This document shows, piece by piece, positions 12,160 through 34,021 of a stretch of 64,000 bases of DNA. Under the pieces are notes generated by a model. It worked only from the letters and a program-made list of their open reading frames with translations, did not search any database and was not told the DNA's origin. The stretch covers positions 24,791,000 through 24,854,999 of the forward strand of contig OZ038384.1 of the NCBI GenBank assembly GCA_964036045.1, read 5' to 3'. Within the stretch, counting starts at the first letter, position 1. The number at the start of each line of letters is the position of its first letter. The DNA comes from Eutreptiella sp. 'Long Island Sound 2002' (Eukaryota; Euglenozoa; Euglenophyceae; Eutreptiales; Eutreptiaceae). A program made the translations under genes and the position numbers.

Positions 12160-12535
12160 GGAGGTAGCGCACCAGGCGCGCGCCGCGAAGGAGCTGGTTC
12201 GAACCCCGGGATCGGTGGTCTCCCACCGATCCCTTCGAATACCGGACGAGGCCTCCCATCGACCTGTTTGAGTACAGGTGACGGTGCGCACTGCTGCAGG
12301 GGTGGGTGGCTCCCATGTGTTTTGTTTTTCTTGGGCGGGGGGCAAAACGAACGAGACCTCCACCCGATCCACCGGTATCGGTGGTGGCGCGAGTTGCTGG
12401 AGGGGGGGGTGGTTCCCACGTAGCCAACTAGAGAGCTCTACGTGCAGGGATCCCAGGAGCACCAACGCCCGGGATCGAACCCCCGCACTGGACGATTGAA
12501 GACCGACGCTCTCACTACTGGGCCGCGGGTGTCTC
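12160..12535 (-). repeat. Three spaced hairpins and a tRNA-like box in LINE 3' DNA
   Basis: Read on the minus strand, three perfect or near-perfect hairpins occur: 12,369-12,384 (6-bp stem), 12,262-12,279 (6-bp stem, 6-base loop) and 12,208-12,233 (11-bp stem, 4-base loop). Similar GGGA-CCAC and GGAGGCCTCGT-type sequences flank the first two, suggesting a decayed tandem unit. B-box-like GGTTCGATCC and GGTTCGAACC occur near 12,478 and 12,197 (minus strand). LINE 3' hairpins are known to recruit their own RT; that role here is an inference. Confidence 0.45.
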
Positions 12536-12779
12536 TTACGCCACTGAGGGGTGTCGTCGGCTATGAATCCAGTCCTGAGGGTGGGGCTGTGCGTTGTGAA
12601 GCGTGTTGCGCGTGCCGGGAGGCCCCAGTCCACGTGCACGGGGTCGGGACGGGCGGGGAGGGGGCTGGGTGGGGTGCGTTGGATCGCCGACTGACGTGCA
12701 CAGGGGAAAGAGGCGGGCAGTAGCTCCGCCGGGTCGCCGACTGACTGTAGGGCGGGGGGTCGCTCTGCCTCTTTCCGTC

Positions 12780-14800: not shown

Positions 14801-14955
14801 TGCGGGGCAGCCGGTTCCTCCCCGCGCTTGTCGCCTCCGCACTCCCTCCCGCGGGAGGCGGCGCGCCCTCGCACGTCGTGCCATACCGTGGGGGGGGCGT
14901 GGGTCAGGGGGCCCATCCCCCCCCCCCAACCCTCCCGTACCCGCCGTCTGGGCCT

Positions 14956-15200
14956 TCACTTGCGCCGCCGCTTGTGTGGGGGCTGGGGCTGCGGCGGCGG
15001 CGGGTTGTGCCGGCGGTAGCGCCAGTGGGCGAGGGCGCTACGCAGAGCCCGGGGGAGCCAGTTGTTGGCGTCCGCATCCGTGATGCGGAGCACCGCTCCC
15101 CCTTCCAGGAAGGCCGGCCACGTCGGCCCCCTGTCGGGCCACGCCGCCCGGATCACTGACCTGAGGACCCTCTCGTGGTCCTCTGGGGCCGCCCACCCCC
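14956..15200 (-). CDS. LINE-1 ORF6 C-terminal end in shifted frame
   Basis: After the ORF6 frame stops at 15,153, another frame carries a better-looking C-terminus: a hydrophobic/aromatic stretch around WPAFLEGGAVLRITD, a helix WLPRALRSALAHW, then PPHKRRRK and a stop. LINE-3 has PPHKRRR after a comparable helix, so this is very likely the true end of ORF6, reached by a one-base slip or indel between about 15,160 and 15,240. KRRRK looks like a nuclear-localisation signal. Confidence 0.6.
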
Positions 15201-17039
15201 CGGGGGTGCCTCTCGGTTTCCTCCGTCCCTCCGGAGGAGCACGGCATCGAAGGGCCGGTTCCGCGACCTCCTGGAGGTCCCCTGGTTGGCCCAGCACAAC
15301 CACCCGTACACTTCCCCCACCAGGTGGAGGGTCTCCCCCCCCAGCGGGTCCGGGACTGCGCCCCAGTCCACGTCCCATGGCCGGCTCCCCTCCACCCCCC
15401 GTGCCTGCCCCCCTCGCTGCTCCTGCGCCTGCGGCGCCGATGCCGCGCCCCGTCCCCCCTCCGCCGAGGCCATCCGCGCCGGCTCTGCCCTCGGCGCGGG
15501 GGAAGCTTGCTGGTGCTGGTGTCGTGGGGGTTGGGGGGGGACGAGCTCGCCAGCGTCAGGGTCGATGTTGTAGAGGTGGTGGTGGTGGTGGTGGTGGTGG
15601 TGGTAGGTGTGGTGTGCCGGCATCTGTTGGATGCCGGGGGGGATGCACCTCACCGGCTGCACGTCCGGCTGCGGGGGCGCTCCGCCCTCTGCCCCCCTCC
15701 CTTCGCCCCGCCCTCCCCCCTGGGCTCCCATGCCCCGTCCCTCCTGTCCCTTGGGGCCCTTGCCCTTGCCCTTGCCCTTGCCCTTGGGCCCCTTCCCAGT
15801 CCCGCGCCCGTGTCGCGGGTCCCGCCTCTCGTCCCCCACGCTCTGGCCCGCTCGCTCTCCCATCCCCCCTTGTCCTGCCCCCTGCACCTGGGTACCCTTC
15901 CCGCGCCCCTGAGCACCCTTCCCGTGCCCTGGCCCCTCCCCGACCCCTTGCCCGTGTCGCGAGTCCCGCCCCTCGTCCACCACGCCCCGGCCCGCTCGCT
16001 CTCCCACCTCCCCCCGCCCCGCCCCCTGCACCTGGGCTCCCTGCCCGCGCCCCTGCGCGCCCTTCCCGTGCACTGACCCCTCCCCTGCCCCCTGCCTGTC
16101 ACGCCGTCCGCTGCTCCCCTCCCCCTCGTCGCTGCGCCCTTCCTGGACCACTCGCCGGGCGTCCCGCTGCCTTTGCAGTTGCGGCAGCGTGACGCCCGGC
16201 GGCGAGCGCTCGCGCGTCGGGGGGCGGACGTGCCGCTCCCGCCCCGGGGGGAAGGGCTTGCGGGGGTACGGCTTGGGGGGGCTGGTGTGGGTGTGGGCGG
16301 GGTTGGCGTGGGCGCGGTACTTCGCGCTCTCCCTGCCCACTGCTGCTGCGGCGGCGGCCGCCGGCGAGGCGTCCGTGGCCCGTGCGGGGTTCTTCTCCCG
16401 CTTGCGCGGCGTGCCGGGGGCCGCAGCCCCTCTCGCGCCCTCCGCACTCTCCTTTGCTGCCGCGGCGGCCGCCGACGAGGCGCCCGTGGCCGCGGTCGCA
16501 GACCCTCGCACGCCCTCCTCGGTCTCCTCTGCTGCCGCGGCGGCCGCCGGCGAGGCGCCCACGGCCCGTGCGGGGTCCGTCGCAACCCCTCGCACGCCCT
16601 GTTTGCTCTCCTGCGCGGCTGCGGCAGCCCTCGGCGACGCGTCCGGCTCCTGCGCTGGGGCTGCCCCCCTTGCCGGCGGTGTGCCGGGGGCCGCGGCCGG
16701 GGCCGCGGCGTGGTTTGCCGCGGTCTCCGCCTCCTGTGCGTCAGGGCGGGGCGGGGCGGCGGGGCTGGCCGCTTGGGCGGCGGGGGCGGCCGTCTCGGCT
16801 GGCCCAGGTTCCCGGGCCGGCGGCAGCGGCCCGACCACCGCCGCCTCCGCCAGCCTCCGCTCCTCGCGCTCCGCGAGGGTCTCCCCCGTCCACTCTGGGG
16901 AGGAGACGGGGGAGCGGGAGCGGGACCGGCGGTGGTGGCGGTCGTCCCGCCCGAGGGACCCATCGGAGTCTGCCATCACTGTTACTCTGGTAGGCATGCG
17001 TGGTGGCAGGCGCGCCCTTCCCACTACCTCCTGGTGCAT
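15153..17039 (-). CDS. LINE-1 ORF6: Arg/Ser- and Ala/Pro-rich basic protein
   Basis: The ATG at 17,037-17,039 overlaps the ORF5 stop as TGATG. The protein is about 628 residues and low in complexity. It has an N-terminal RS segment (HHRRSRSRSP, residues about 35-45), Ala/Glu-rich repeats in which similar blocks recur three or four times (residues about 130-250), a Pro/Arg region, a Gly/Arg/Gln region with repeated GQGxGEGxG units, a His run (GGT repeat, plus strand about 15,570-15,605), and a short folded-looking end with several Trp. Related proteins occur in LINE-2 and LINE-3. I infer an RNA- or chromatin-binding accessory protein; the function is not known. Confidence 0.6.
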   Translation of the reverse strand: MHQEVVGRARLPPRMPTRVTVMADSDGSLGRDDRHHRRSRSRSPVSSPEWTGETLAEREERRLAEAAVVGPLPPAREPGPAETAAPAAQAASPAAPPRPDAQEAETAANHAAAPAAAPGTPPARGAAPAQEPDASPRAAAAAQESKQGVRGVATDPARAVGASPAAAAAAEETEEGVRGSATAATGASSAAAAAAKESAEGARGAAAPGTPRKREKNPARATDASPAAAAAAAVGRESAKYRAHANPAHTHTSPPKPYPRKPFPPGRERHVRPPTRERSPPGVTLPQLQRQRDARRVVQEGRSDEGEGSSGRRDRQGAGEGSVHGKGAQGRGQGAQVQGAGRGEVGERAGRGVVDEGRDSRHGQGVGEGPGHGKGAQGRGKGTQVQGAGQGGMGERAGQSVGDERRDPRHGRGTGKGPKGKGKGKGKGPKGQEGRGMGAQGGGRGEGRGAEGGAPPQPDVQPVRCIPPGIQQMPAHHTYHHHHHHHHHLYNIDPDAGELVPPQPPRHQHQQASPAPRAEPARMASAEGGRGAASAPQAQEQRGGQARGVEGSRPWDVDWGAVPDPLGGETLHLVGEVYGWLCWANQGTSRRSRNRPFDAVLLRRDGGNREAPPGGGRPQRTTRGSSGQ

Positions 17040-18331
17040 CAGTGCCGTGCCGTGGGCAGTGCCGTGTGGTGCTCTGCGGGGGGGAGGGGGGGAGGGGGTG
17101 GGGGGCCGGCTGTGGCGTCAGCCCGGCACGGCCGGGGGTCCGCGGCCATCCACCGGCATTGGGAGGGGAGGCGGGGGAGCCACGCGGCCCACGCGTCGCG
17201 CCACAGCTCCCAGTCTGGGGCGGGGCTCAGGGCCCTGGGCCCCCGGGGGTCGTCGAGCGGTGTCGGGGGCAGCCGCACCAGGTGGACCCCCGTAACGGCG
17301 GTGACCTCCTGTGTGCGCAGGAAGGTGTGTACTCCGTCCCGCGCCGCGGGCGCCGGGAGGGGGGGGCGGGGTACGGGTGTGGCCCCATAGAGGTGGGTGG
17401 GGGAGATCCCCAGGATCCGCCCCGGGCCCCCGCGGGTCCCGACGACGAGGAGGAGGAGGGGGGTGCCAGGGCACTCTTGCCAGAGGACCTGCCCCCTGTG
17501 GTGGGCACCCCTGGTCCTGGAGAGGGGGGGGGAAAGGTCTGGATTAGCCCAGCCGCGGGGCGCGTGCGTCGCCGGTGGGAGGGCGGGGCACCAAGTGGGC
17601 TCCCTGGGGAACGCCTCGTAGACGACGGCGTACAGGGGGGTAGGCCCGGTGCCGTCATACACCGGGTTGGTCGGCCGGGGGCGGGCGGACGCCTCGTCCG
17701 CGCCTTCCACGAACACCGTGACCTCGCCCAACTCCAGGTCCTCGTCCGGCGGGTGTAGAAGGTGGAGCGCCGCATCCAGCTCGGACACTCCCCCCGGGTA
17801 CGTGGCCCGCGCCTGGTTCAGGTACGGGGCCGCGTCCCCGGGGTAGCGCGTCCTCAGGGCGTGCAGCAGGGCTGGGGCGCTACTGCGGAGGGACATGGCA
17901 GACCCCGCTCCCGTCAGCCGGAGGGTGTCCCCCATGGACAGGGGCCGGCCTGACCGATTGGACTCGCGCCACTCCATCCAGTGCCCGTAGAGGGCCGCTT
18001 CCGGGCTGATGAGCCCCGGCCGGACGGCGTTCACGATCCGGTGCATTGCCGGGAGCAGCGTAGGGGCCCCCGCTCCGTTCAGGGCGCGGACGGCCGGGAG
18101 GGCGGTCTCGTCGAGGAAGGCCCTCACACTGCCCCCCAGGTCGCACCGTGCGGCAGCGTGCGCTTCTTTTGCCTCCGCCACCGCGTCCGCCACAGGCCCC
18201 GGACGGCCGCCTCCTGCGCTCTGCGGCGGGCCCTGGTGTGCCCCGGCCCATCCCCCCGGCGGTGTGGCATGGTGCTGCGGGCTCTGCAAAGGGTGGGGGT
18301 TAGGGGGCGAACACGTGCGACAGGTGCGCAA
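17039..18331 (-). CDS. LINE-1 ORF5, unrecognised
   Basis: About 430 codons in a frame different from ORF4, overlapping its end by 31 bases. No ATG occurs in the first 90 codons of this frame, so entry by +1 frameshifting at the ORF4 end (GCC CCC TAA) or by non-AUG initiation is possible. The middle (residues about 45-260) looks like a mixed helix/strand protein (FLDETALPAVRAL, YGHWMEWRESN, ELGEVTVFVEG); the rest is Pro- and Arg-rich. I recognise no domain. It ends in TGA, overlapped by the ATG of ORF6. Confidence 0.6.
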   Translation of the reverse strand: MRTCRTCSPPNPHPLQSPQHHATPPGGWAGAHQGPPQSAGGGRPGPVADAVAEAKEAHAAARCDLGGSVRAFLDETALPAVRALNGAGAPTLLPAMHRIVNAVRPGLISPEAALYGHWMEWRESNRSGRPLSMGDTLRLTGAGSAMSLRSSAPALLHALRTRYPGDAAPYLNQARATYPGGVSELDAALHLLHPPDEDLELGEVTVFVEGADEASARPRPTNPVYDGTGPTPLYAVVYEAFPREPTWCPALPPATHAPRGWANPDLSPPLSRTRGAHHRGQVLWQECPGTPLLLLVVGTRGGPGRILGISPTHLYGATPVPRPPLPAPAARDGVHTFLRTQEVTAVTGVHLVRLPPTPLDDPRGPRALSPAPDWELWRDAWAAWLPRLPSQCRWMAADPRPCRADATAGPPPPPPLPPAEHHTALPTARH

Positions 18332-19820
18332 CGGATGTGGGGTCCTGCAGGTGCACGTGGATCCACAGAAGGGCAGCGCCCGCGGGGCCCGCTTGTTCGT
18401 GCGAGGGGGTGTGTGCCCCCTCGATGCGCCGGCGCAAGGCCTCCTCCTCTGTGCGCCTGCGCGGGCCTGCGGGAGGTTCGGGCCAGGGGCACGCGGCTAC
18501 CTGGGTGCACCGCGCGCACCTGTTGGCGCCTGTCGCTGCTGCGGAGGACACCGTGTCACACTCTCCGCAGAGTCGGCAGGTGTGTGGGAGGTGGGAGGGC
18601 GGCGACCAAGGGTCGAGATGGCGGAGCCAGAGGTCGTCCCACCTCTGTCGGAGGGGGTCCCGGATCTCCAGCAAGCGGGCGCGGACGCGGCGCCGGTAGT
18701 CCTTGCCAAGCGTCTTCCGCTGGACCTCCTGCCACGTGTCGCCGGGGAGGATCCCGTGGTCGTGGAAGGCGGCGATGAGGTCGTCCCACGCCGGGCGGGG
18801 GTGCCCCTGGGGGGGGCTCGCCATGTACACGTGGCGCCCGGTGAGGTGGTGCGTCAGCGCGTCCCATTGGCACCCGTTCGCGGTGTCTCTGTGGAGGAGG
18901 GCCAGCAGGGTGCCGTCCGCGACTGCCTCCCACCCCACTCGCAGCCCTTCGCAGCCGTCCAGCTCCTGGCGCAGCGCGGCTGCGATACCGGATGGGAGCA
19001 TGAGGAGTAAGGGCCCCTGGGTGTCGCCCAGCCGGGACAGGGCGTCGTCGTATACCGGCCCCCCAGCTTTGAAGTGCGCCACGGTGAGTTGGGTGGCCCC
19101 GTCCTCTGGGGGGTGCCACCGGACGGTGGCCGCAGCATGTCCCCACGTGCGTATCTCCGTGGCCCGGAGCACGTTGGCGGTGTGAAGGACGATGCGGGGC
19201 GGGACGGGCGTCCTGACGAGTGAGGATACGTCCCCAGTCCATCCCGTTTGCGGCCCCGGGGCCGCCTGCAGCCATTCCCCCGTCGCCGCGTCCCACGGGT
19301 GGTCAGGCCCCGCCCCGCGGATCATGGTGGGTCTCGGCCGGGTGTCCGGCCCCCACCCCCGGAGCGGGACGGCGGCGTATCGTTGCGCAGGGGTCTCCGG
19401 GGCGCGCGTGGCGGCGCACCACCGGCCCCACTCCCGCGCCCATTCCTCCCCCACGATGCGCGCCTCCCATGCGGTCATGGAGCCGCGCCCGATGATCCAC
19501 GGTGGGAAAAGGGCGTCTTGCAGGTGCCTCGAGAACCCCCCCGGCAGGTCCTGATACGGGTGGGGGCTCTCTTGGAGTGGGCACTCCAGAGTGCCATTCA
19601 CAACACGGAGGGAGGCTACGAAGTCCTTGTCAGGGCGCGGGGGAGGGGGAGGGTGGTCGCCCTCCGCCGCAGTGAGCCACCGGTGCGCCCGGGCCGCCGC
19701 GCTTAGGGGCTCGTGGAGGAGTTGCTCCAGCCGGTGGTTGCGAAGCTCCCACGCGAAGTCCCCCAGCCGGAGCATGTGGTGGAGGAAATCGTCCACTGAG
19801 GTCCCTCCCGGCGGGTCGTA
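18300..19820 (-). CDS. LINE-1 ORF4: zinc-ribbon protein of unknown function
   Basis: The frame is in phase with the RT ORF and begins right after its TGA (19,821-19,823). The first ATG comes 16 codons later (before LRLGDFAWELR). It spans about 505 codons. The N-terminal third is helical and Trp-rich, and the centre is strand-rich (TEIRTWGHAAATVRW, LLLMLPSG). A zinc-binding cluster (CRLCGEC ... CARC, C-x2-C-x2-C with a distant CxxC) lies near residue 410-435. A basic helix EEEALRRRIEGAH follows. I do not recognise the family. It could be made as a readthrough extension of the RT protein or by re-initiation at the nearby ATG. Confidence 0.6.
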   Translation of the reverse strand, partial: YDPPGGTSVDDFLHHMLRLGDFAWELRNHRLEQLLHEPLSAAARAHRWLTAAEGDHPPPPPRPDKDFVASLRVVNGTLECPLQESPHPYQDLPGGFSRHLQDALFPPWIIGRGSMTAWEARIVGEEWAREWGRWCAATRAPETPAQRYAAVPLRGWGPDTRPRPTMIRGAGPDHPWDAATGEWLQAAPGPQTGWTGDVSSLVRTPVPPRIVLHTANVLRATEIRTWGHAAATVRWHPPEDGATQLTVAHFKAGGPVYDDALSRLGDTQGPLLLMLPSGIAAALRQELDGCEGLRVGWEAVADGTLLALLHRDTANGCQWDALTHHLTGRHVYMASPPQGHPRPAWDDLIAAFHDHGILPGDTWQEVQRKTLGKDYRRRVRARLLEIRDPLRQRWDDLWLRHLDPWSPPSHLPHTCRLCGECDTVSSAAATGANRCARCTQVAACPWPEPPAGPRRRTEEEALRRRIEGAHTPSHEQAGPAGAALLWIHVHLQDPTSVAHLSHVFAP

Positions 19821-22800
19821 TCAGGTTATGGCGCGGAGCTGCGCCTCCGCGTCCTCGGGCACCAGTCCGGAGCAGAACACCTCCGTCCACGTGGCGCCTG
19901 CGGAGCGCCACGAGGCCACCCACAGGGCCTTGTCCCCAGGTGGGAGGTGGCGGGCCGCCTCGTGTACCGCCTGGCGGTAGTGGGGCCAGAGGAGCCGCAA
20001 GTGGGTGCAGCCCACGTGCATGTGCACCGGGGTCTCTTCCGGGCCGCCGCAGAAAAGGCACGGTTGCGGGACGATGGCGACGCCGGAGAGCCGCTCCTTC
20101 CGGATGCGGAGCCTGCGCTGCACCGGCGTGTGGCCGTCTCGGGCCCGCAGCGCCCGGCGGTTGGTGGCCGCCGCGGTGAGGTCCCGGGCGTGGACGTAGG
20201 CCGTGGCGTGGGCCGCGCCCAAAGGTGTGTGTCCCCGGTGCGTCAGCGCATGGTCCGTCTGCGCCCGTTGCGCGACCTCGCCGAGCACCCGCATCGTGGG
20301 GGGCCGTAGATCGAGATGGCCGTCACGGCCGGCGACGATGAGTTGGGCGTGGCCAGGCTCCGGGGGCGTGTTCTGCAAGACGGTGTCCTGGGACGCCGCC
20401 CAGTCCGCCTTGTGCAGCAGGGCGTCACTGTGGTGCGAGGTGGCTCGGACGTACCAGAACGGGTGCCCGGCGTGTTGCCCCCGCGCGCACAGGCCGTCCC
20501 GGAGCCACCTCAGGGGCATCTGGTTGACCACCTTCGCTGCACCCGCGGGGACCCCCGTGGTTCGCTCGCGATCTGCGTGCCGCAGGAGGTGGAGGATGAC
20601 TTCGGCGTCCACCGTGTGGACCCATGGTCTGTGTGCACCGTAATGTAGGGGGAGGGAGGCGGCCACCCCCTCTCCGTCGGGCACCGTGCCCGAGATGGCC
20701 ACCGCCCACGTGCGGGTGAGGTCGGCGGCGAGAGCGACGCTGGTGGCGTGTTTGCAGGGTCCGCCCCCGGACGCGTCAGAGGAGGTGTGTCCCCAGGCCT
20801 CCGGGATCCAGTAGTATCCGGTGGGGCTGAGCCACCCCGCGTTGAGGTCGGTGGAGTGCCACCGGACGTCGGGGTGGCTGTGGGTCAGTTGGTCCACGCT
20901 CAGCGCCCTGGTGTCGCCTGGGCTGATCGCCGGGTGGTCGTGCAGCCGGATCTCCGCTCCGGCGACCGTGCTTGCCCAGGACCGTAGCGCCGTCACATGT
21001 TCCTTGAGCCACGCCGGGCCCCCGCGCTGGTGTACCACCAGGTGTCCTGTGTCCTCCGGACGGTCCTCCAGCGCGTGCACCGCCATGTGTGGGTCGTGCG
21101 GCACCCCCGTAGCCACCAGTAGGGCGGTGCCACGGGGGAGCCCACGGGGTTCGGGCTGGCCTGCCCCCACTTGTACTATCACCCACTCGGCCTGGAGCTG
21201 CGCTTGTCCCGTCGCTTGGGTGCATTGGTCGTCTGTGGTCACCAGCCACAACGGCGTCGGCGCGTGGGGCCGGGGGCGTAAGGGCTCTGGCCACGCCACG
21301 TCCGCGTTAGGCTCTTGGTGCTCGCTTTCCGCGAGTACGTCGCGGAGGATGTACATGAGGGCCGCTGGCGGGTGGTACGCCGCCCCCCGCGTGGGGTGGG
21401 ACAGGCAGTCCCGGCGGCGGTAGCCCCCGACGTGGAGGTGCAGGCCGTCCGGGGTCACCCTTGGGCCGGTGTGGGCGTCCTGCTTAGCCCTCGTGGGGTG
21501 GACGAGTCTCAGGCGGGGGTCCCGTGTGCCGGTGGTGTGGAAGAGGTGGGCCAGGGCATCGCGCCACCCGGGGTGGTTGGTGGGCCCTTGCTCACGGCGG
21601 CAATAATGGAGGTGTTCATCGGCGCATTGGTTGAGGCACTCCCGCACCGCCGTCGGCCACGGATCGTCGTTGTCGGGGAAGGGGTGGCGTGGCCCGTGGT
21701 GCCCATGCCACGGCGTTGCGTGTGGCACCGTCAGGCGGCACATGTCGCGGTGTCGCAGCTTGGCGGTGCGCAGCGTGACGATTTTGCCCGGCGGGGACTG
21801 TAGTTGGACATGAGCCGCCCTGGGGCACGCGATGGGGTTGTACATCCCCACTCCCAGGGCGGCCAGGGCCCGGGGTATGCAGTGGACCCAGTCGCCTCCC
21901 GCCAGAGTTATGAACTCCGGGACGGGGTAGTGCACCATGGGGCATATTCCGTGCGCGCCGGCTATCTCCCAGAACATCTTGGTGACCTCGGCGCGCACGG
22001 AGGTTGCGCGGTGGTGGACGAGTGTACCCACGAGGGCCACCGCTGCCTGCTGGCACCGCGTGGGCACCCGTGTGAGCCCCAGGGTCCGGTCGTCCTGCAG
22101 GCTGTCCCGCGAGGCGTCGAAGGCGTACCGTGCCCTGTCCTTCGCGACCTGGACCGTGATGTGGTCCAGGTGGCGTGCAGTGTCGGAGTCGTCGGCGATG
22201 AAAGGGGCGACGTACTGCGTCACCCCTCCGAGGATCGCCAGGATGACGTCCTGCACCACTTTCGGCGGCGCGAGGGTGTTAAGGCACCAGTGGTGCACTG
22301 CCGCCAGGCGTAGCCGGTGCGTGCGCTGCAGGGAGAACTCCCCGTCCGGCTGCAGCTGGAGTCCCAGGTAGGGGACGGAGTCCGCCGCTGGTACCCAGTA
22401 CCACGGGTTTTCCAGGTGGGGGCAGAGGCGCAGCTGCAGGCCCGGGACCCCCTCCGTGGTGGCCATGGCGCACTTGCGGGGGTTGAGCTCCATGCCCATC
22501 ATCCCAAGGTACGCGGCCATCGCCTCCACGCCCTCGACGAAGTGCTGCAGCGTGTGGGCCACCACCAGCAGGTCGTCGATATAGGCCTGGATGAGGCCGT
22601 GCTCGGCCCCTCCCGGCGGGCGCAGGCGGTGCCCCTGTGCCCTGAGCAGGGGCTCCAGGAGGAGCGCGTACAGCAGGGGGCTCTCGGGGTTGCCCTGCCG
22701 GACGCCGCGTAGCATGTAGACGGGCTGCGTTAGCCCGTGTGCTGTGACGATGCGCAGCCTGGCGCACGTGTGGAGGAAGAGCAGGAGGTCAATAACGTCC

Positions 22801-24995
22801 GGCGGCACGGAGAGGTGGCGCAGGATGAGGTGGAGGGCGCCGTGTGGGGCGGTGTCGAAGGCCTTGCGGGCGTCGAAGGAGAAGACGTAGTTGGGCCTTC
22901 CCCGCTGGAGCTGCCGCTGCGCCATGAACAGCGGGGGGCCTGTGTTGGAGCCAGGGAGGGCCCCCTGCTGCCAGTCGCTGACCACGCCGTGCCGTGTGAG
23001 CACCTTCGTGATGCGCTGGGTGAGGGGGCCCGTGAGCAGCTTCGTGTCCAGCTGGCCCAGGGCTATGGGCCTGTAGTCGTCCAGTCTGGCAGAGCCCGGT
23101 ACCTTGGGGCTGAGCCAGATGTGCGCGTCCCTCCAGTGCATCGGTGGCGGGGCGCCGCGGAGGATGGCCCGGTAGGAGTGGATTAGGAGCCACTGGACGG
23201 GTGCCGGGAGGGCCTTGATGAAGCGGGCCTCCACGTGGTTAGGACCTGGGGCCTTGCCATCGGCCTTGTCCAGGGCGGACTTCAGGTCCTGCATGGAGTA
23301 CTGCTGGACCTGTGTCCAGGCTCCCTCAGGGACCCGGGGGACGTGGCGGCCGAGGACCGCCTGGAAACCCGGGAGGTCCACCGGGCGTTTGTCGTACAGT
23401 TCTCGCCAGAAGGCGCGGACTGCGAACATCACGTCGTGGGCCTCCGTGAGGAGCGTTTGGGTGTTGGGAACCCGCACGTTCCAGAGGCCTGACGGGCCTG
23501 GGGCCTCCACCTCTATGGCTCCCCGCACGGCTTTCCATCGCTGGGCGATGTCGGGGGCGTGGCGTCGCCAGAAGTCCTTGATGGCGCGCTTGCGGTCTGC
23601 CGCCAGGAGGGCGCGGAGCTGGCGAATGTCCTCCTCGAGGGCGGCTGCTTCCCTCTCCAGCTCCTCCTGCAGTTGGCCCTGCGTGGTCGGGCGGAACCCG
23701 GGCGACACACCCTGCAGTTCCTCCGTGAGCCGGAGCGCCGCCTCGGACCGGATGCCATGCCTGGCCGCGTCCGCCTGGTACGCTGCCGGGGCGCGCGCTG
23801 CCAGGGTGTCATAGCGGAGGACCGCTGCCTGGAGCTGCTTTCCGCTCTCCGGGAGGTCCCCCTCCGCCGGGTCCGTTCCCGCCGGAGACGGCTGCCGGCG
23901 TCCCACCACGCGCGCTAGGGCGTCATGCGTCGCGTGGAGGTGTTCGAACACCTTGTCCACCGCAGCCGCGGGCATGGACCCGTCGTCGTGCTGCTCTGCG
24001 GGACCCAGCCAGGGCGCAAGGGAGGGTTCATCCTGCGCGGCGGTGACCGCCGCCCACAGGCAGTGTTGGACGGGCGCGGCCTCGGCGTCGTACGGGAGGA
24101 GGCGGCCCTCCGTGTGGCTGTAGGGGGTGGGCATCGCCGCGCGTCCCGCTGCGCTGAGGAGGCCCGGCAGGGCCAGGCGGACCGGGAGGTGGTCCGAGCC
24201 GACCACCTGGGGGTGTGCCATGCCGCGAGCCCAGACGCTCTCCCGCAGGGACCACGGCAGGAGGGGCTCGTTGACCAGGAAGGTGTCCACCCTGTGCTGG
24301 GACGGGTGGAGCGTGGGGGTCATGTCCTCCTCGCCGCCTGCCGCGGCTCTTCGGAAGCCGCAGGCTTCCCAGCCCGCTCGGAAATGCTCCGTGGCCGGGT
24401 TGGCGGGGACATCCATGTAGATGTTGGTGTCACCGGCAATGACCACCGGGTGCCTCCCGCCGAGGCTGCGTGCCATGGCATACATTTGTATGTCGGCCCA
24501 GAACGCCGCCCGTCCCGCCCACGGGGAGCAACCTGCTTGCGGCCCGTGGACGTTGATGAGGCTGAGGCCTCCCCCGTCCGTGCGGATTTCCAGGGCCGCG
24601 GCTTTCCCGGGGACCATTTCCGTGAAGCTGAGCACCTCGTGCTCCGCCACGTACTTGCTGCTGACCGCGGTGAGGAGGCCCCCCCCTCTCGAGGTGGAGG
24701 TGGCCCCCGTCTCCGCCAGCCGGCTGCTGAAGTAGGCGGTGTACCCCTTGTCCCGGAGCGCCGCGGCCACGTGCATCTCCTGCGCCCTGGTGGCGATCCC
24801 CGTTTCCTGGAGCATGATGGCAAAGCCCCCCTCCTGGGGCAGCATGCCGGTGATGAGGTGCTCCTTGTCGGTGCAGGCCGCCGGCCCCCGGCGCCGCCGG
24901 AGTGTGTCCCGGAGGGACCGGTCTGGCGGCACGAGGCCGTTGCGCAGGTTCCACGAGAGGAGCCACAGGGCGTCGCCCGTCGTGTCCTCCTGGAG
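19821..24995 (-). CDS. LINE-1 endonuclease, reverse transcriptase, RNase H
   Basis: The open frame starts directly after a TGA at 24,996-24,998 and spans about 1,724 codons. An apurinic-type endonuclease fills residues about 1-270, with SWNLRN, QET, GDTN, RVD and GSDH motifs all present. Reverse transcriptase lies at about 580-860 (SFDARKAFD, RGVRQGNPESPLL, YIDD box at about 805; most LINEs have FADD). An RNase H-like region lies at about 1,400-1,525 (SSDASGGG, TVDAEV, KADWAAS), and a CxxC...H...C zinc motif at about 1,644-1,665. The product would nick DNA and prime cDNA on it. The first ATG comes about 45 codons in, after the catalytic Asn, so normal AUG initiation would destroy the endonuclease. 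Confidence 0.93.
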   Translation of the reverse strand, partial: LQEDTTGDALWLLSWNLRNGLVPPDRSLRDTLRRRRGPAACTDKEHLITGMLPQEGGFAIMLQETGIATRAQEMHVAAALRDKGYTAYFSSRLAETGATSTSRGGGLLTAVSSKYVAEHEVLSFTEMVPGKAAALEIRTDGGGLSLINVHGPQAGCSPWAGRAAFWADIQMYAMARSLGGRHPVVIAGDTNIYMDVPANPATEHFRAGWEACGFRRAAAGGEEDMTPTLHPSQHRVDTFLVNEPLLPWSLRESVWARGMAHPQVVGSDHLPVRLALPGLLSAAGRAAMPTPYSHTEGRLLPYDAEAAPVQHCLWAAVTAAQDEPSLAPWLGPAEQHDDGSMPAAAVDKVFEHLHATHDALARVVGRRQPSPAGTDPAEGDLPESGKQLQAAVLRYDTLAARAPAAYQADAARHGIRSEAALRLTEELQGVSPGFRPTTQGQLQEELEREAAALEEDIRQLRALLAADRKRAIKDFWRRHAPDIAQRWKAVRGAIEVEAPGPSGLWNVRVPNTQTLLTEAHDVMFAVRAFWRELYDKRPVDLPGFQAVLGRHVPRVPEGAWTQVQQYSMQDLKSALDKADGKAPGPNHVEARFIKALPAPVQWLLIHSYRAILRGAPPPMHWRDAHIWLSPKVPGSARLDDYRPIALGQLDTKLLTGPLTQRITKVLTRHGVVSDWQQGALPGSNTGPPLFMAQRQLQRGRPNYVFSFDARKAFDTAPHGALHLILRHLSVPPDVIDLLLFLHTCARLRIVTAHGLTQPVYMLRGVRQGNPESPLLYALLLEPLLRAQGHRLRPPGGAEHGLIQAYIDDLLVVAHTLQHFVEGVEAMAAYLGMMGMELNPRKCAMATTEGVPGLQLRLCPHLENPWYWVPAADSVPYLGLQLQPDGEFSLQRTHRLRLAAVHHWCLNTLAPPKVVQDVILAILGGVTQYVAPFIADDSDTARHLDHITVQVAKDRARYAFDASRDSLQDDRTLGLTRVPTRCQQAAVALVGTLVHHRATSVRAEVTKMFWEIAGAHGICPMVHYPVPEFITLAGGDWVHCIPRALAALGVGMYNPIACPRAAHVQLQSPPGKIVTLRTAKLRHRDMCRLTVPHATPWHGHHGPRHPFPDNDDPWPTAVRECLNQCADEHLHYCRREQGPTNHPGWRDALAHLFHTTGTRDPRLRLVHPTRAKQDAHTGPRVTPDGLHLHVGGYRRRDCLSHPTRGAAYHPPAALMYILRDVLAESEHQEPNADVAWPEPLRPRPHAPTPLWLVTTDDQCTQATGQAQLQAEWVIVQVGAGQPEPRGLPRGTALLVATGVPHDPHMAVHALEDRPEDTGHLVVHQRGGPAWLKEHVTALRSWASTVAGAEIRLHDHPAISPGDTRALSVDQLTHSHPDVRWHSTDLNAGWLSPTGYYWIPEAWGHTSSDASGGGPCKHATSVALAADLTRTWAVAISGTVPDGEGVAASLPLHYGAHRPWVHTVDAEVILHLLRHADRERTTGVPAGAAKVVNQMPLRWLRDGLCARGQHAGHPFWYVRATSHHSDALLHKADWAASQDTVLQNTPPEPGHAQLIVAGRDGHLDLRPPTMRVLGEVAQRAQTDHALTHRGHTPLGAAHATAYVHARDLTAAATNRRALRARDGHTPVQRRLRIRKERLSGVAIVPQPCLFCGGPEETPVHMHVGCTHLRLLWPHYRQAVHEAARHLPPGDKALWVASWRSAGATWTEVFCSGLVPEDAEAQLRAIT

Positions 24996-24998
24996 TCA
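24996..24998 (-). other. In-phase TGA between C2H2 ORF and endonuclease
   Basis: The minus strand reads GAT AGC TGA CTC CAG GAG. The first endonuclease strand (LLSWNLRN) begins about 10 codons later with no ATG between. UGA followed by CU is related to the UGA-CUA context known to favour readthrough, but CUC is not the strongest form. Confidence 0.5.
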
Positions 24999-26219
24999 GC
25001 TATCCCGCATCGGCATCGCCGCCGGGTTCGCTGGCGCCGCCAGGGCATCTGGGTGCGCCGCATCCGCTGAGCCCGTTCCCAGCGGGGCCCACAGGGGGGC
25101 CCGGGGGACCGGGGGAGCCAGGGGGGCCAGGGGGGCCAGCCCCGCGGGGATGGACATGGACCCTGGTGGGGCCGCGCCGCCGGCCCCCGGGGCCGCTCCG
25201 GGTGCCTCCTCACCTCCATCTGCGTGGTCGGCTGCCTGAGGCGGGGGGCGCCGGGTGTACGGGGCGTGCCACGGGGACCTCCGTGCTCTCCCCTGCAGGA
25301 TGTTGGCGGCCGCCTCCTTGTCGTCCGTCAGGGCCGCAGCGTGCACCGCGTGCCACGCCAGGTGTTCCAGCATTGCCCCGCTGGTGTAGTACTTGTCCGC
25401 ACACAGGGGGCACTTCGTCGGCTCCGTGGCCCCTCGCGCCGGGGGGAGCTGCACCGACTTCCGAATGGCGCCCTCCGCCGCTGGTTCTAAGGGCAGGTTG
25501 GCCAGCGGCACCGTGTGTGGTGCCAGCGTGCGGCCCGGGGCCGCCGCATCGAGGGCTCGCGTCGCAGGCGCGGGCCCGAGGCCTCGGGCGGCATCGCGCT
25601 GCGCGTCTGCTTGCAGCCACGTTTGCCAGTGCGTGGATCCGATTTGGCGGTCGGGTTTGCTCCTCCATCGCAGGTCGTGGAAGGCCTGTAGCCAGTGGTA
25701 CACCGTGGTCGGGACCGCCAGCTGTAGCTCCAGGTCGGCGGGGTGCACCGCTGCCGGCCACACTCCCGGCCTCGCCGCCCGGGCGTTGTCCTTCAGCCTG
25801 ACCTGGAGCAGGAGGGCGTGGTATTCGCCCTCCCGCAGCGCCTTGATGATCATGCGTGTGCAGTCTGCCACGCGGATCACGGCTTCGGGCCCCGGCAGGC
25901 GTTCGGGGTCGCAGACGACGATGTGCGCGTCCGCTGGGCTGAACATGCAGACCACCCACTGTGGGTTCTGCTGCCCCCGTTGGGCCACCGCCAGGGTAGC
26001 CGCTGGGCGGGCGTGCGTGATGGGCCCCGCGTGGAGGTCCGGGACGTCCGTGGCCCTGATGGCGTCTCCCTGCCACGCGGCCCGTAGATGCTCCTCCTGG
26101 TCGGGGCTCCACACCAGTGTGGGGGGGTTGACCCACCCCGGTTCCTGCCTCTTGTTGGGGGCGCTGACAGTGTGTAGCAGGACCGCCAGCGGCCAGGGGT
26201 CCGCCGACACATAGTAGGC
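24996..26219 (-). CDS. LINE-1 C2H2 zinc-finger ORF between two in-phase stops
   Basis: About 407 codons lie between an upstream TAG (26,220-26,222) and a TGA (24,996-24,998), in phase with both neighbours. No ATG occurs in the first 90 codons. The first 240 residues look globular (strands such as WVVCMFSPADAHIVVCD, helix RMIIKALREGEY). A C2H2 finger (CPLC ... H ... H) lies at about residues 270-293, followed by a long Ala/Pro/Gly-rich tail. C2H2 fingers preceding the endonuclease are known in other LINE clades and may bind target DNA. The lack of an ATG suggests that this is the middle part of a readthrough polyprotein. Confidence 0.75.
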   Translation of the reverse strand, partial: AYYVSADPWPLAVLLHTVSAPNKRQEPGWVNPPTLVWSPDQEEHLRAAWQGDAIRATDVPDLHAGPITHARPAATLAVAQRGQQNPQWVVCMFSPADAHIVVCDPERLPGPEAVIRVADCTRMIIKALREGEYHALLLQVRLKDNARAARPGVWPAAVHPADLELQLAVPTTVYHWLQAFHDLRWRSKPDRQIGSTHWQTWLQADAQRDAARGLGPAPATRALDAAAPGRTLAPHTVPLANLPLEPAAEGAIRKSVQLPPARGATEPTKCPLCADKYYTSGAMLEHLAWHAVHAAALTDDKEAAANILQGRARRSPWHAPYTRRPPPQAADHADGGEEAPGAAPGAGGAAPPGSMSIPAGLAPLAPLAPPVPRAPLWAPLGTGSADAAHPDALAAPANPAAMPMRDS

Positions 26220-28691
26220 CTAGGTGGGCCCCTGTCGCCAGTCGACGTGGGGCAGGGGCGGGAAAGCCCCCTGCCTGGCGGTGCTGTGCCAGACCGTCCA
26301 TCGGCCTCCGGCCAGGATGTGCGACCGGTACCGTCCGGCGTGGCCGTGTACGATGGCTTGGTAGCCTGCCGTCTGCAGTACCAGTGCCTCCCCTTGCTTA
26401 GGCCCGGGCGGGGGTGCGCCATCGCCCGCACCCCAGACGCGGGTGCGCCCGCGGAGTGTGGCATGCCACGGGTCTGGTGCATCGCGCTGGGGTCCTTGTA
26501 TGCATCCCGCAATTTGCGCCGGGCCGTGGTGGTGGACGAAGCTCTCCCCGCCGTCTGCTAGCAACGCGGCCGCGACGACGTATAGTTGCTCCGCCGTGAG
26601 GGGTGCCGTCGGCTCGTGCGTCGCGGCCGGCCGTCGGGGCCGCGTGTCGCGGCAGGGGACTTGGGGCAGCAGCTGCGCCGGCCACGCCGCCACTGGACCC
26701 ATGGTGACGGCCGCAACCGCGGACGCCAGCGCCGTGCGGTCCGTGGGTCTGTACTGCCGGAGTCCCGTGGCATCTCGGGTGAGGTGCCTGCAGGCTGCCA
26801 TCCAGGCCACCGCTCCGCAGTTCGTGCAGTCCGGTTCGGCACCGCTCGCATCGTCGCCTCCCCATTGCTGTACCGTGGTGGCGGTGTCGAGCGGGGGGCC
26901 CCGCTGTAGCGCCTCCGGGCCCTGCCCCGGCGGGAGGGCGGGCGGGATTGGCTGCGGGTAGCTGTGCGCGCCCCGGCGCTCCGGGTGCGTGTGGTACGGG
27001 TTCTGCCGGCGGTGTTCCGGGGCTGCCCGTGGCTGGAAGAGGAGTTGGTGCAGGTACCAGTGGCCCTCCGCAGTGGACGGATTGCGGAGCGTTAGCCACT
27101 GTTCCACCACGCCTCCTGGGTGCGCGGCCTCGACGCGGCGCTGCAACCCCAGGCGGCCTAGGCGGTTGGATGTGCCCGCGGGTGGGATGTGTGCTTGCGG
27201 GTAGAGCACCCGCAGCGGCTCCAGCGCCAGGTCCAGCACTTCGTCGTTGAGCTGCTTCGTGAGGGCCGACGCCCTGTGTAGGGCGTGGAGGACCCCGGGT
27301 GTGGGGGCCGTGAGCTGTTCGAGCACCGGTCCCGGCGGGTACCGCGTACCCGGGTTCGTTAGCCACTCCCTGGTGTGGCTCAGTACGGCCTTCCACACGT
27401 CCCTTGTAAAGGCGTGCTGGGGGGCCAATGAGGGGACCATCCGCAGGAGGCGGTGGCACGCCGGCGGCGATCGCATGGGCTGTGGGGCGGCCGCCGCGAT
27501 CCACCTGCACGCCGTGCCGGGCACGATCGCCCCCCATTCCACGGTCCTCATGCCCTCGGCATGGATCAGCGCCTGGCCTTGGACCATGGGGAAATAGGGG
27601 CTCGAGCGCCCCTTCCCTTCCTTCCACCGTACCCAGGCGGCCCCCGCCTGCAGGCTGCGGAGCAGGGCCACGCCGGGGAGGAGCGGCTGCGGGAAAGCCC
27701 CCTTGACGGCCTGGGTGGCGTGGGCCAAGGTGCCCATGGGTAAGTACCACAACGGGAGGGTCCAGGGGCCCGGCAGTGGTTGCGCCACCCCTGCGTCCCA
27801 TCGCCACTCGGAGTCTGGCGGGGTGGCCGGGACCGTGCCCGTCTGCAGGAAGTGGCGCGCCTGCTTGTCGGGGTGCCGTTGGAGGATTGCCGCGAGGCTG
27901 AGCCCCTCTGCCGCTGGTGCCACCGGGAGGCCGCCCCGGGGCCTGCGCCAGGGGTATTCCTGGTCGGCCGGCCAGGTGTGGAGGTCCCGGGCGATGTCCT
28001 CCGCGGTCCCTGTGGGGGCGTCCTCTGGTGCCAGGTGCCACATGACGGCGAGCACCGCCCATGTGGAAAAGGGCCACGCCCGCGGGGGGGCGTACAACTG
28101 GATGGTCCACTGTGGGCACGCCCGCCGCACGCGGGACGCGTGGAGCACCCCTCGGACCATGTCCGCCGCCAGGACCAGCACCATTCCCGAGGGATCCACA
28201 ATGATCCCCTCTGCGGGTCCACCGTGGCGGCCCCGGGTGTGCAGGGCCACTGCCGCCTGTCCCGCGTGGGTGACGCGGTCGACGGCCTCCTGGATGTTCA
28301 CGCTGCCGCGCGCGGTCTCATCCAGGATCCAGCCCTGCGTCACCCCGTAGCGTAGGGCGGCGCGTGCGGCTGCCGGCTTCACCTCGGGCAGCGCTCCGTC
28401 GTCGGCATCGGGCCGGGGGTGCTGTTTGGGGCACCAGCCTTCGCCGGTGCAATGGCCCCGTTTCCACGCTGGGCAGATCGCGGGTACGCCGTCCGCCGGC
28501 GGCGCAGGTTCCGCGGGCGCGTCCCCCGTGGGGGGCTCCGGCAATGCCTCCAGGTCGGAGTCTGTGCCCGCGTCCCCTTGTGAGGGGTCTCCTTCGCCGT
28601 CTCTGAGTCCCAGCGCCCTGATGACCTCGTGTGCTTCGTCCAGCGTCGGAGATCGGGGGCGTGTCTTGCGTGGTGCCGCGGGCTCCGCCAT
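26220..28691 (-). CDS. LINE-1 ORF1: CCCH finger and USP-like cysteine protease
   Basis: The likely start is the ATG at 28,689-28,691 (MAEPAAPRK); the frame is open up to an ATG at 28,796, at the edge of the monomer array. A CCCH zinc finger of spacing C-x7-C-x5-C-x3-H lies near residues 75-95, typical of RNA binding. A long mixed region (about 130-590) is not recognised. The last 200 residues contain a Cys box (DCTNCGAVAWMAAC), a HHHG segment, and GRYRSHILAGGRWTVWHS, which resembles the C-terminal box of ubiquitin-specific proteases, where GHY is usual; here the His reads Arg. ORF1 ends in TAG, in phase with the next ORF. Confidence 0.75.
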   Translation of the reverse strand: MAEPAAPRKTRPRSPTLDEAHEVIRALGLRDGEGDPSQGDAGTDSDLEALPEPPTGDAPAEPAPPADGVPAICPAWKRGHCTGEGWCPKQHPRPDADDGALPEVKPAAARAALRYGVTQGWILDETARGSVNIQEAVDRVTHAGQAAVALHTRGRHGGPAEGIIVDPSGMVLVLAADMVRGVLHASRVRRACPQWTIQLYAPPRAWPFSTWAVLAVMWHLAPEDAPTGTAEDIARDLHTWPADQEYPWRRPRGGLPVAPAAEGLSLAAILQRHPDKQARHFLQTGTVPATPPDSEWRWDAGVAQPLPGPWTLPLWYLPMGTLAHATQAVKGAFPQPLLPGVALLRSLQAGAAWVRWKEGKGRSSPYFPMVQGQALIHAEGMRTVEWGAIVPGTACRWIAAAAPQPMRSPPACHRLLRMVPSLAPQHAFTRDVWKAVLSHTREWLTNPGTRYPPGPVLEQLTAPTPGVLHALHRASALTKQLNDEVLDLALEPLRVLYPQAHIPPAGTSNRLGRLGLQRRVEAAHPGGVVEQWLTLRNPSTAEGHWYLHQLLFQPRAAPEHRRQNPYHTHPERRGAHSYPQPIPPALPPGQGPEALQRGPPLDTATTVQQWGGDDASGAEPDCTNCGAVAWMAACRHLTRDATGLRQYRPTDRTALASAVAAVTMGPVAAWPAQLLPQVPCRDTRPRRPAATHEPTAPLTAEQLYVVAAALLADGGESFVHHHGPAQIAGCIQGPQRDAPDPWHATLRGRTRVWGAGDGAPPPGPKQGEALVLQTAGYQAIVHGHAGRYRSHILAGGRWTVWHSTARQGAFPPLPHVDWRQGPT

Positions 28692-28820
28692 TGCTATGTT
28701 GCTGTGTCTAAGAGCAGGGGGCGGGGTGCGGATGTCCCGTGGCTGGTGCGTTGGTGCGTTGCTACGTTGCTCGGTGTGGGGGTGGTGGATGGGCATCCCC
28801 GGGGGGGCGCCTTCCAGTGT

Positions 28821-31800
28821 TGCGAGGGGCGTCCGGTGTTAGGCGCTGTACCTCTCCCGGTCGCCCGGCCTCCGGAGCGGGCAGCCAGGGTTCCGCGACC
28901 CGTGTGTCCCGGGTGCGGTCGATGCGGACGTGCGGGCCCAGCACCGGCCCCACGGCGTGCGCCCTTGCGGGCCGGCGTTGCTCGCTGTGGGGGTGGCGGA
29001 AGGGCGTCCCCGGGGGGGGTGCCTTCCACCGTTGTGAGGGGCGCCTGGTGTCAGGCGCTGTCCCTTCCCCGGCCGCTCGTCCTCCGGAGCGTGCAGCCAG
29101 GGTTCCGCGACCCGTGTGTCCCGGGTGCGGTCGATGCGGGCATGTGGACCCAGCACCGGCCCCACAGCGTGCGCCCTTGCGGGCCGGCGTTGCTCGCTGT
29201 GGGGGTGGCGGAAGGGCGTCCCCGGGGGGGTTGCCTTCCACCGTTGTGAGGGGCGCCTGGTGTCAGGCGCTGTCCCTCCCCCGGCCGCGCTCGTCCTTCG
29301 TAGCGTGCAGCCAGGATTCCGCGACCCGAGTGTCCCGGGCGCGGTCGATGCGGGCGTGTGGACCCAGCACCGGTCCCACAGCGTGCGCCCTTGCGGGCCG
29401 ACACTGCTCGCTGTGGGGGTGGCGGAATGGCGTCCCCGGGGGCGGTGCCTTCCACCGTTGTGAGGGGCGCCTGGTGTCGGGCGCTGTCCCTTCCCTGGCC
29501 GCTCGTCCTCCGGAGCGTGCAGCCAGGGTTCCGCGACCCGTGTGTCCCGGGTGCGGTCGATGTGGGCGTGTGGACCCAGTACCGGCCCCACGGCGTGCGC
29601 CCTTGCGGGCCGGCGTTGTTCGCTGTGGGGGTGGCGGAAGGGCGTCCCCGGGGGAGGCTGCCTTCCACCGTTGTGAGGGGCGCCTGGTGTCAGGCGCTGT
29701 CCCTCCCTCGGCCGCTCGTCCTCCGGAGCGTGCAGCCAGGGTTCTGCGACCCGCGTGTCCCGGGTGCGGTCGATGCGGGCGTGTGGACCCAGCACCGGCC
29801 CCACAGCGTGTGCCCTTGCGGGCAGGCGTTGCTCGCTGTGGGGGCGGCGGAAGGGCGTCCCCGGGGGGGGTGCCTTCCACCGTTGTGGGGGGCGCCTGGT
29901 GTCAGGCGCTGTCCCTTCCCCGGCCGCTCGTCCTCCGGAGCGTGCAGCCAGGGTTCTGCGACCCGCGTGTCCCGGGCGTGGTTGATGCGGGCGTGTGGAC
30001 CCAGCACCGGCCCCACAGCGTGCGCCCTTGCGGGCCGACGCTGCTCGCTGTGGGGGTGGCGGAAGGGCGTCCCCGGGGGGGTTGCCTTCCACCGTTGTGA
30101 GGGGCGCCTGGTGTCAGGCGCTGTCCCTCCCCCGGCCGCTCGTCCTCCGGAGCGTGCAGCCAGGGTTCTGCGACCCGCGTGTCCCGGGCGTGGTTGATGC
30201 GGGCGTGTGGACCCAGCACCGGCCCCACAGCGTGCGCCCTTGCGGGCCGGCGTTGCTCGCTGTGGGGGTGGCAGAAGGGCGTCCCCGGGGGGGGTGCCTT
30301 CCACCGTTGTGAGGGGCGCCTGGTGTCAGGCGCTGTCCCTCCCCCGGCCGCTCGTCCTCCGGAGCGTGCAGCCAGGGTTCCGCGACCCGCGTGTCCCGGG
30401 CGCGGTTGGTGCGGGCGTGTGGACCCAGCACCGGCCCCGCAGCGTGCGCTCTTGCGGGCCGGCGTTGCTCACTGTGGGGGTGGCGGAGGGGCGTCCCCGG
30501 GGGGGGTGCCTACCGCCGTTGTGAGGGGCGCCTGGTGTCAGGCGCTGTCCCTCCCCCGGCCGCTCGTCCTTTGGAGCGTGCAGCCGGGGTTCTGCGACCC
30601 GCGTGTCCCGGGTGCGGTCGATGCGGGTGTGTGGACCCAGCATCGGCCCCGCAGCGTGCGCCCTTGTGGGCTGGCGCTGCTCGCTGTGGGGGTGGCGGAA
30701 GGGCGTCCCCGGGGCGGGTGCCTTCCACCGTTGTGAGGGGCGCCTGGTGTCAGGCGCTGTTTCTTCCCCGGACGCTCGTCCTCCGGAGCGTGCAGCCAGG
30801 GTTCCGCGACCCGTGTGTCCCGGGTGCGGTCGGTGCGGGCGTGTGGACCCAGCACCGGCCCCACAGCGTGCGCCCTTGCGGGCCGGCGTTGCTCGCTGTG
30901 GGGGTGGCGGAAGGGCGTCCCCGGGGGGGGGGGGTGCCTTCCACCGTTGTGAGGGGCGCCTGGTGTCAGGCGCGGTCCTTCCCCCGGCCGCTCGTCCTCC
31001 GGAGCGTGCAGCCAGGGTTCCGCGACCCGTGTGTCCCGGGTGCGGTCGATGCGGGCGTGTGGACTCAGCATCGGCCCCACAGCGTGCGCCCTTGCGGGCC
31101 GGCGTTGCTCGCTGTGGGGGTGGCGGAAGGGCGTCCCCGGGGGGGGTGCCTTCCACCGTTGTGAGGGGCGCCTGGTGTCAGGCGCTGTCCCTTCCCCGGC
31201 CGCTCGTCCTCCGGAGCGTGCAGCCAGGGTTCCGCGACCCGCGTGTCCCGGGTGCGGTCGATGCCGGCGTGTGGACCCAGCACCGGCCCCACAGCGTGCG
31301 CCCTTGCGGGCCGGCGTTGCTCGCTGTGGGGGTGGAAGAAGGGCGTCCCCGGGGGGGGTGCCTTCCACCGTTGTGAGGGGCGCTTGGTGTCAGGCGCTGT
31401 CCCTCCCCCGGCCGCATGTCCTCCGGAGCGTGCAGCCAGGGTTCCGCGACCCGTGTGTCCCGGGTGCGGTCGATGCCGGCGTGTGGACCCAGCACCGGCC
31501 CCACAGCGTGCGCCCTTGCGGGCCGGCGTTGCTCGCTGTGGGGGTGGCGGAAGGGCGTCCCCGGGGGGGGTGCCTTCCACCGTTGTGACTGGCGCCTGGT
31601 GTCAGGCGCTGTCCCTCCCCCGGCCGCTCGTCCTCCGGAGCGTGCAGCCAGTGTTCCGCGACCCGTGTGTCCCGGGTGCGGTCGATGCGGGCGTGTGGAC
31701 CCAGCACCGGCCCCACAGCGTGCGCCCTTGCGGGCCGGCGTTGCTCGCTGTGGGAGTGGCAGAAGGGCGTCCCCGGGGGGGGTGCCTTCCACCGTTGTGA

Positions 31801-33980: not shown

Positions 33981-34021
33981 CTTTCCTTGCTTTCCGGCGG
34001 CCGGTCGCCATCTGTTACAGC

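Follow-up and report, generated by a model that had tools for sequence, protein, structure and literature searches.

A conserved in-phase UGA between ORF1 and ORF2 in a long LINE of Eutreptiella and its possible readthrough

Introduction

Long interspersed nuclear elements (LINEs) fall into named clades such as I, Jockey, R1, L1 and RandI/Dualen. Those with an apurinic/apyrimidinic (AP)-type endonuclease carry a first open reading frame (ORF1) and then ORF2, which encodes the endonuclease together with reverse transcriptase (RT); their copies are truncated at the 5′ end and share a fixed 3′ end. The LINE considered here, on the minus strand of a 64,000-nucleotide stretch of the Eutreptiella sp. 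'Long Island Sound 2002' genome (contig OZ038384.1, positions 24,791,000 to 24,854,999; hereafter the window), follows the same plan, but it differs in its length of ~21.8 kb with a 5′ tandem array, in its 1,231-amino-acid (aa) ORF1, 2,231-codon ORF2 and extra ORF3, and in having ORF1 and ORF2 in one phase with a single UGA, and no AUG, between them. From the comparison of copies, we consider it somewhat probable that the window holds one damaged copy of a long LINE whose ORF2 is made by readthrough of the conserved ORF1/ORF2 stop.

Translation of the second ORF in LINEs is unsettled, and passages of three reviews point to reinitiation or leave the matter open (PMC2881922, PMC5009743, PMC5972666). 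In SART1, as described in part of one of them (PMC5972666), the ORFs are joined by an overlapping UAAUG, and in L1 a 63-nt spacer is followed by an ORF2 AUG; the window LINE has no usable AUG, yet in the proposal made here its ORF2 translation would likewise depend on translation of ORF1. The gag-stop-pol arrangement of murine leukaemia virus (MuLV), as outlined in a passage of PMC5009743, resembles the window LINE in that one stop separates gag from a pol of the same phase. The latter differs in being an element without long terminal repeats (LTRs) and in using UGA instead of UAG, and MuLV has a stimulatory pseudoknot where simple folding found nothing here. A UGA between the two main ORFs is also described, in the part of PMC2194720 drawn on, for the Candida LTR retrotransposon Tca2. 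In the open-access literature, covered by titles and abstract openings, no LINE with an in-phase stop that is read through was found. A LINE clade in which an AUG-less ORF2 lies in phase behind one conserved UGA would make the question of second-ORF translation directly testable.

One conserved stop in a long open phase

The first-pass annotation of the window, made from its letters alone, had read the region as four modules in a single minus-strand phase, punctuated by three single stops, each at a module border. The single phase and the positions of the three stops are confirmed. From 28,838 down to 18,300 the phase is open except for TAG 26,220-26,222, TGA 24,996-24,998 and TGA 19,821-19,823, and it ends at TAA 18,300-18,302. 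Its 3,513 codons thus include 4 stops where ~59 would be expected on base composition alone, so that the open phase is more than chance; 47 and 24 stops occur in the remaining sense phases and 33, 32 and 90 in the antisense ones. The stops, and the two ORFs that they bound or interrupt, are as follows.

26,220-26,222, minus strand: TAG, a nonsense mutation of the window copy and no border
24,996-24,998, minus strand: TGA, the true conserved ORF1/ORF2 border, with one phase on both sides
19,821-19,823, minus strand: TGA, a nonsense mutation of the window copy; the P0001 protein runs through it
18,300-18,302, minus strand: TAA, the end of ORF2, shared by the window and 11 copies, 12 of 12 sequences (the non-homologous L033 omitted)
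24,999-28,691, minus strand: ORF1, which in other copies encodes 1,231 aa (MAEPAAPRK...PMRDS) and in the window is interrupted by TAG 26,220
18,303-24,995, minus strand: ORF2, 2,231 codons comprising endonuclease from codon 13, RT and a C-terminal region, broken here by TGA 19,821

Other copies decide which of the three stops belong to the element. The host genome (2.28 Gb) was searched with a 1.5-kb piece of ORF2 as query, and the 40 best of 2,677 candidates were scored, these being the window and 39 others at ~99% identity; 20 copies, ~98% identical, were fetched over the region and each was projected onto the window. At 26,220, all 15 covering copies read CAG, and the genome as a whole has TAG between the same exact flanks at two places, one of them the window. 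At 19,821, CGA is found in 19 of the 20 copies and a deletion in the remaining one. The TGA at 24,996 is present in each of the 16 copies covering it and in 323 of 328 sites with exact flanks genome-wide (161 + 167). Further in-phase stops elsewhere are private and number 0 to 3 per copy, the decay expected in dead copies. The claim that every stop marks a module border therefore stands for TGA 24,996 and falls for the other two, where sense codons take the place of the stop. The window LINE is evidently one damaged copy with two nonsense mutations, TAG 26,220 and TGA 19,821, that are confined to it or nearly so.

The encoded proteins, judged by cluster representatives rather than by individual members, follow the same division. 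Representatives P0198 (439 members) and P0199 (177 members) are 1,231 aa long and run from ATG 28,691 to TGA 24,996, and the diverged ORF1 proteins P0211 (80% identity) and P0246 stop at the same ORF1 end; the ORF1 and the C2H2 ORF of the first-pass annotation are evidently one ORF1. The separate ORF4 that had been proposed proves to be the end of ORF2: representative P0001 (438 members; 2,181 aa, codons 51-2,231) continues through it, and its start is the first in-phase ATG of ORF2, at codon 51. The other copies thus encode a 1,231-aa ORF1, one UGA, an ORF2 in the same phase, and an ORF3 with its own AUG. Copies ~98% alike suggest that the LINE was probably active recently.

Purifying selection in one phase

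Variants among the 20 copies and the window were divided into private ones, taken as mostly post-insertion, and those shared by at least two copies, taken as closer to changes of the active lineage. In the common phase, the nonsynonymous-to-synonymous ratio (N/S) of shared variants relative to expectation is 0.29 before TAG 26,220, 0.19 from there to TGA 24,996, 0.30 in ORF2 codons 51-1,724 and 0.38 in the ORF2 tail after TGA 19,821; in the other phases of the same four regions it is 1.3 to 7.1. Shared and singleton ratios differ in each region (Fisher p 0.004 to 0.008). Purifying selection in a single phase thus runs across both private stops, and it flanks TGA 24,996 on both sides, a pattern named at first pass as one that would support the stops. 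No indel site is common to two copies, each being private, and the ORF1 tail (26,219-24,999) shows no net frame change in 12 of the 15 copies that cover it.

Domains and LINE membership

ORF2 matches Pfam RVT_1 (E 4e-22) and, upstream of it, Exo_endo_phos (ORF2 residues 13-269, profile positions 1-225 of 225, E 5e-9). At the sequence level, the RT finds chains of R2 and of human L1 (E 2e-16 to 2e-12); with the endonuclease alone, no PDB chain matched at E up to 10. The domain labels first attached to the region are thereby upheld for endonuclease and RT. Pfam gives nothing on ORF1 that supports CCCH, USP or C2H2, and no RNase H family was found in ORF2 residues 1,133-1,724 at E up to 10, in a search whose HMMER filters drop most weak matches; a zf-RVT match in ORF2 remains sub-threshold (E 0.041).

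Five of the 20 copies lose their 5′ side at points between 21,696 and 25,141, their match extending from that point to 18,600; copies L011 and L023 break off within ORF1, and L010 lacks the 3′ side. The element thus shows the marks of a LINE, namely RT, an AP-type endonuclease ahead of it, and 5′-truncated copies along with a common 3′ end, the latter seen in longer copies. In an RT tree of 69 rows, few of them named, the element (family 1) and the sister family described below (family 2) are united in a clade (100/100) set off by a long branch. The nearest rows are weakly supported (83/69 and 86/88), being a metagenome pair and a group with Haematococcus; the nearest named RT, P0029, a LINE-like protein of Haematococcus lacustris compared by protein only, joins at 86/88 with a branch of 1.54.

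A sister family with the same junction

The RT search retrieved P0010 (1,283 members), 49% identical in the RT and 37% over ORF2, which represents family 2. At least 28 copies are listed in the window's genome, 18 of them with a 2,234-codon open frame. In 10 of 10 fetched copies the junction consists of a single TGA followed by ORF2 in the ORF1 phase, so that the TGA equivalent to 24,996 is kept as a stop throughout. The endonuclease's first conserved motif, SWN, which is invariant in a six-row alignment, begins with the twelfth codon beyond the TGA, ahead of any in-phase ATG, the first of which is codon 19. Family 1 likewise has no AUG between TGA 24,996 and SWN, its first in-phase ATG (codon 51) lying after the motif. 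The SWN asparagine is, we assume, catalytic in such endonucleases.

Shared N/S relative to expectation in family 2 is 0.22 before the TGA (Fisher p 0.002) and 0.07 after it, with 2.1 to 4.0 in the other phases. In the gap between TGA and SWN, both shared variants are synonymous in the common phase; two private variants are not. The ORF1 tails of families 1 and 2 are, by eye, unlike in sequence and in length. Preservation of the layout while the ORF1 tail changed is the best argument that the layout is functional.

ORF2 of family 2 ends at TGA in four of four copies. An ORF3 in the same phase was sought there and none was found, the phase having stops in all four. Near base 73 of the fetched pieces L051-L054 (L054 reversed), ORF2 ends in an overlapping TGATG, with a frame of ~79 codons in another phase, in four of four copies.

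Readthrough of the UGA and its alternatives

Any account of ORF2 translation has to accommodate a conserved UGA, a phase shared across it, no AUG ahead of the endonuclease motif, coding constraint to either side of it, and a distant sister family built in the same way. Readthrough, for which the shared phase alone suffices, is favoured because the shared phase and the absence of an AUG before that motif hold in both families. As in gag-stop-pol retroelements, the second ORF follows a single conserved stop in the same phase and without an AUG start ahead of SWN. A few ribosomes would read through UGA 24,996 to give an ORF1-ORF2 fusion, and ORF1 would thus be made in excess over RT, as gag is in those elements; if this is true, LINEs and retroviruses reached the same control of ratio separately. 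UGA followed by C is a leaky stop context, and the nucleotide after the UGA is C in family 1 and A in family 2. The early proposal of readthrough or stop-coupled initiation remains a good reading of TGA 24,996, though not of the other two stops. More tentatively, with less confidence than we place in readthrough of the window LINE itself, the whole clade of giant LINEs may obtain its endonuclease-RT solely by extending ORF1 through UGA readthrough, a strategy retained while the ORF1 tail changed, and family 1 would add to it a separately initiated ORF3.

Several observations weigh against readthrough. The main caution comes from Tca2, an LTR element in which, according to the part of PMC2194720 drawn on, the junction alone gave no readthrough in Saccharomyces cerevisiae. 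RNA folding 3′ of the UGA, computed for nested structures without pseudoknots, revealed no unusual stability in family 1 (z -1.3 to 0.8; background mean -0.5, sd 0.9) or in family 2 (z -1.2 to 0.2). Near-cognate codons precede SWN in both families, with ACG, ACG and CTG at codons 5, 6 and 10 of family 1 and GTG at codon 11 of family 2. As to conservation of the stop, exact-flank counting favours little-diverged copies, and five of the 328 sites carry another codon, which we read as decayed copies. At the ORF1 stop position, the single-member clusters P0024 and P0307 have Gly and Leu and P0021 has a deletion; ORF1 representatives P0195, P0197 and P0208 (23, 49 and 155 members) have tails out of phase, which shift at three different points and share one other-phase end sequence. 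All six are likewise read as decayed copies. A private frameshift lies in the ORF1 tail of 3 of the 15 covering family 1 copies, and in 2 of 10 family 2 copies (L047, L049) the frame breaks further upstream in ORF1; these too we take for decayed copies. Evidence of selection thins towards the junction: family 1 has three shared variants in the 40 codons before TGA 24,996 and one in the 50 after, which is too few; the downstream N/S of family 2 departs from the model (binomial p 0.003) but not from its singletons (Fisher 0.34); and the two shared variants of the family 2 gap sit on one split of copies. Families 1 and 2, moreover, share ancestry and count as one line of evidence, not as independent inventions.

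Reinitiation coupled to termination is the strongest of the alternatives, although we regard it as rather unlikely. A ribosome retained at the UGA would restart at a near-cognate codon within ~11 codons, and ORF2 would be a separate protein. The near-cognate codons between UGA and SWN in both families would serve it, and it has precedents in SART1, where coupling at UAAUG is described, and in L1, where it is proposed, in passages of PMC5972666 and PMC2881922. A free start, however, would not require the shared phase, and the positions of the near-cognate codons differ between the families. Family 1 has no AUG overlapping or closely following the stop, and the overlapping ATGA of family 2 opens a frame in another phase that closes after ~34 codons. 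A SART1-type overlapping stop-start, considered as a candidate in its own right, is excluded, there being none in family 1 and one of the other phase in family 2.

That ORF2 is translated from a different RNA, whether transcribed from an internal promoter, given its 5′ end by trans-splicing or rid of the UGA along with an intron, seems improbable. Tca2 offers the model: from the portions of PMC2194720 and PMC7175516 drawn on, its gag/pol UGA junction contained a minor promoter and, in S. cerevisiae, gave no readthrough, and its authors nonetheless conclude that pol comes from the gag-UGA-pol RNA. A new 5′ end would still need a start, and in-phase AUGs appear only downstream of SWN, from codon 51 in family 1 and from codon 19 in family 2; constraint in family 2 is found on both sides of the UGA. 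Copies with the UGA spliced out are absent among the 16 (family 1) and 10 (family 2) that cover the junction, the sole nearby deletion being one of 19 bases in L009 that leaves the UGA intact.

It is very improbable that UGA is no stop in this host, or encodes selenocysteine, with ORF1-ORF2 as one plain protein. A sense UGA would explain the shared phase without recoding, but this codon is the only stop common to the copies within ORF1 and ORF2, TGA ends ORF2 of family 2 (4 of 4 copies) and ORF3 of copy L030, and many TGA occur in non-coding phases; for selenocysteine, no Rfam family exceeded threshold in the window, where a host-specific selenocysteine insertion sequence (SECIS) could escape. 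The original four-module model, in which serial readthrough of three stops gives four products in falling amounts, has the window sequence itself in its favour and is hardly credible, being refuted for two of those stops: none of the 15 copies covering the one and none of the 20 covering the other carries it, and the TAG is found at two places in the genome. A polyprotein punctuated by stops is here the artefact of a single damaged copy, and a caution that in GC-rich DNA the nonsense mutations of one such copy can mimic a multi-part polyprotein.

ORF3 and the flanks of the element

Beyond the two ORFs discussed above, the element comprises the following parts.

17,039-18,270, minus strand: ORF3, 410 aa (MPRRRGD...) in other copies; L030:540-1769
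28,765-32,684, minus strand: 5′ region, tandem array of a 212-bp unit, ~18.5 copies, 93% match (Tandem Repeats Finder)
10,886-17,038, minus strand: 3′ region, GC-rich, with terminus 10,886 in TCAAACC repeats

ORF3, overlooked earlier, follows the ORF2 TAA and in other copies has its own ATG at codon 14, in the ORF2 phase; 423 codons past the TAA are open in 7 of the 12 sequences compared, the window included among the 12. In the window, a 10-base deletion displaces this frame and another, of 1 base near 18,200, interrupts it. Its placement was also obtained by tblastn with P0075, and it ends at TGA in copy L030. The protein has 630 relatives, 120 of them listed, with 410-aa clusters of 358, 327 and 103 members. 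Shared variants in ORF3 comprise 4 nonsynonymous and 3 synonymous changes, and the frame beyond it has no clear phase-specific constraint in five sequences. Pfam assigns ORF3 no confident family, the weak match being zf-C2H2_10 (E 0.093). In structure prediction, the mean predicted local distance difference test (pLDDT) score was 34 for ORF3 (410 aa, 37 rows) and 31 for a piece of ORF1 (823 aa, 43 rows). The single-member P0118 fuses a Ty3-like RT piece, related to window positions 4734-5474, to ORF3, and is probably a nested insertion read as one frame.

The 5′ array lies just upstream of ORF1, and copy L028 matches into it up to 29,305. The whole array may belong to the LINE and act as its promoter, which could then be a multi-unit one comparable to the monomers of mouse L1; the total length of the element given above counts all of it. 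At the other end, the terminus at 10,886 is found in all three copies that reach it, each of them a longer one, and the fetched stretch of L030 stops at 10,916. A partial tandem duplication occupies 12,785-14,808 of the 3′ region, its pieces being 83% and 89% alike in the window, and copies vary there in their gaps.

Other features of the window and the genome

Two further repeats were noted in the window. On the minus strand, 2217-6185 holds the pol frame of a Ty3-type LTR retrotransposon (1,322 aa), with RVT_1 and RNase H over the cut-off and the integrase core below it. On the plus strand, 33,938-40,446 is a GC-rich repeat with long frames and no Pfam match in the five frames tested; its part 36,400-40,446 resembles sequence adjacent to copy L026 at 92%.

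A genome search with Pfam RAG1 gave no match, its control being silent as well. A search for chlorophyll a/b-binding domains gave 2,608 candidates, and among the best 150, which were scored, many stand in tandem in open frames of up to 6,122 aa; examples are C9:43682069-43694992 and C23:19070551-19075362 (4,424 and 6,122 aa). The host is thus evidently a photosynthetic eukaryote, and light-harvesting arrays encoded as polyproteins recall euglenids and dinoflagellates.

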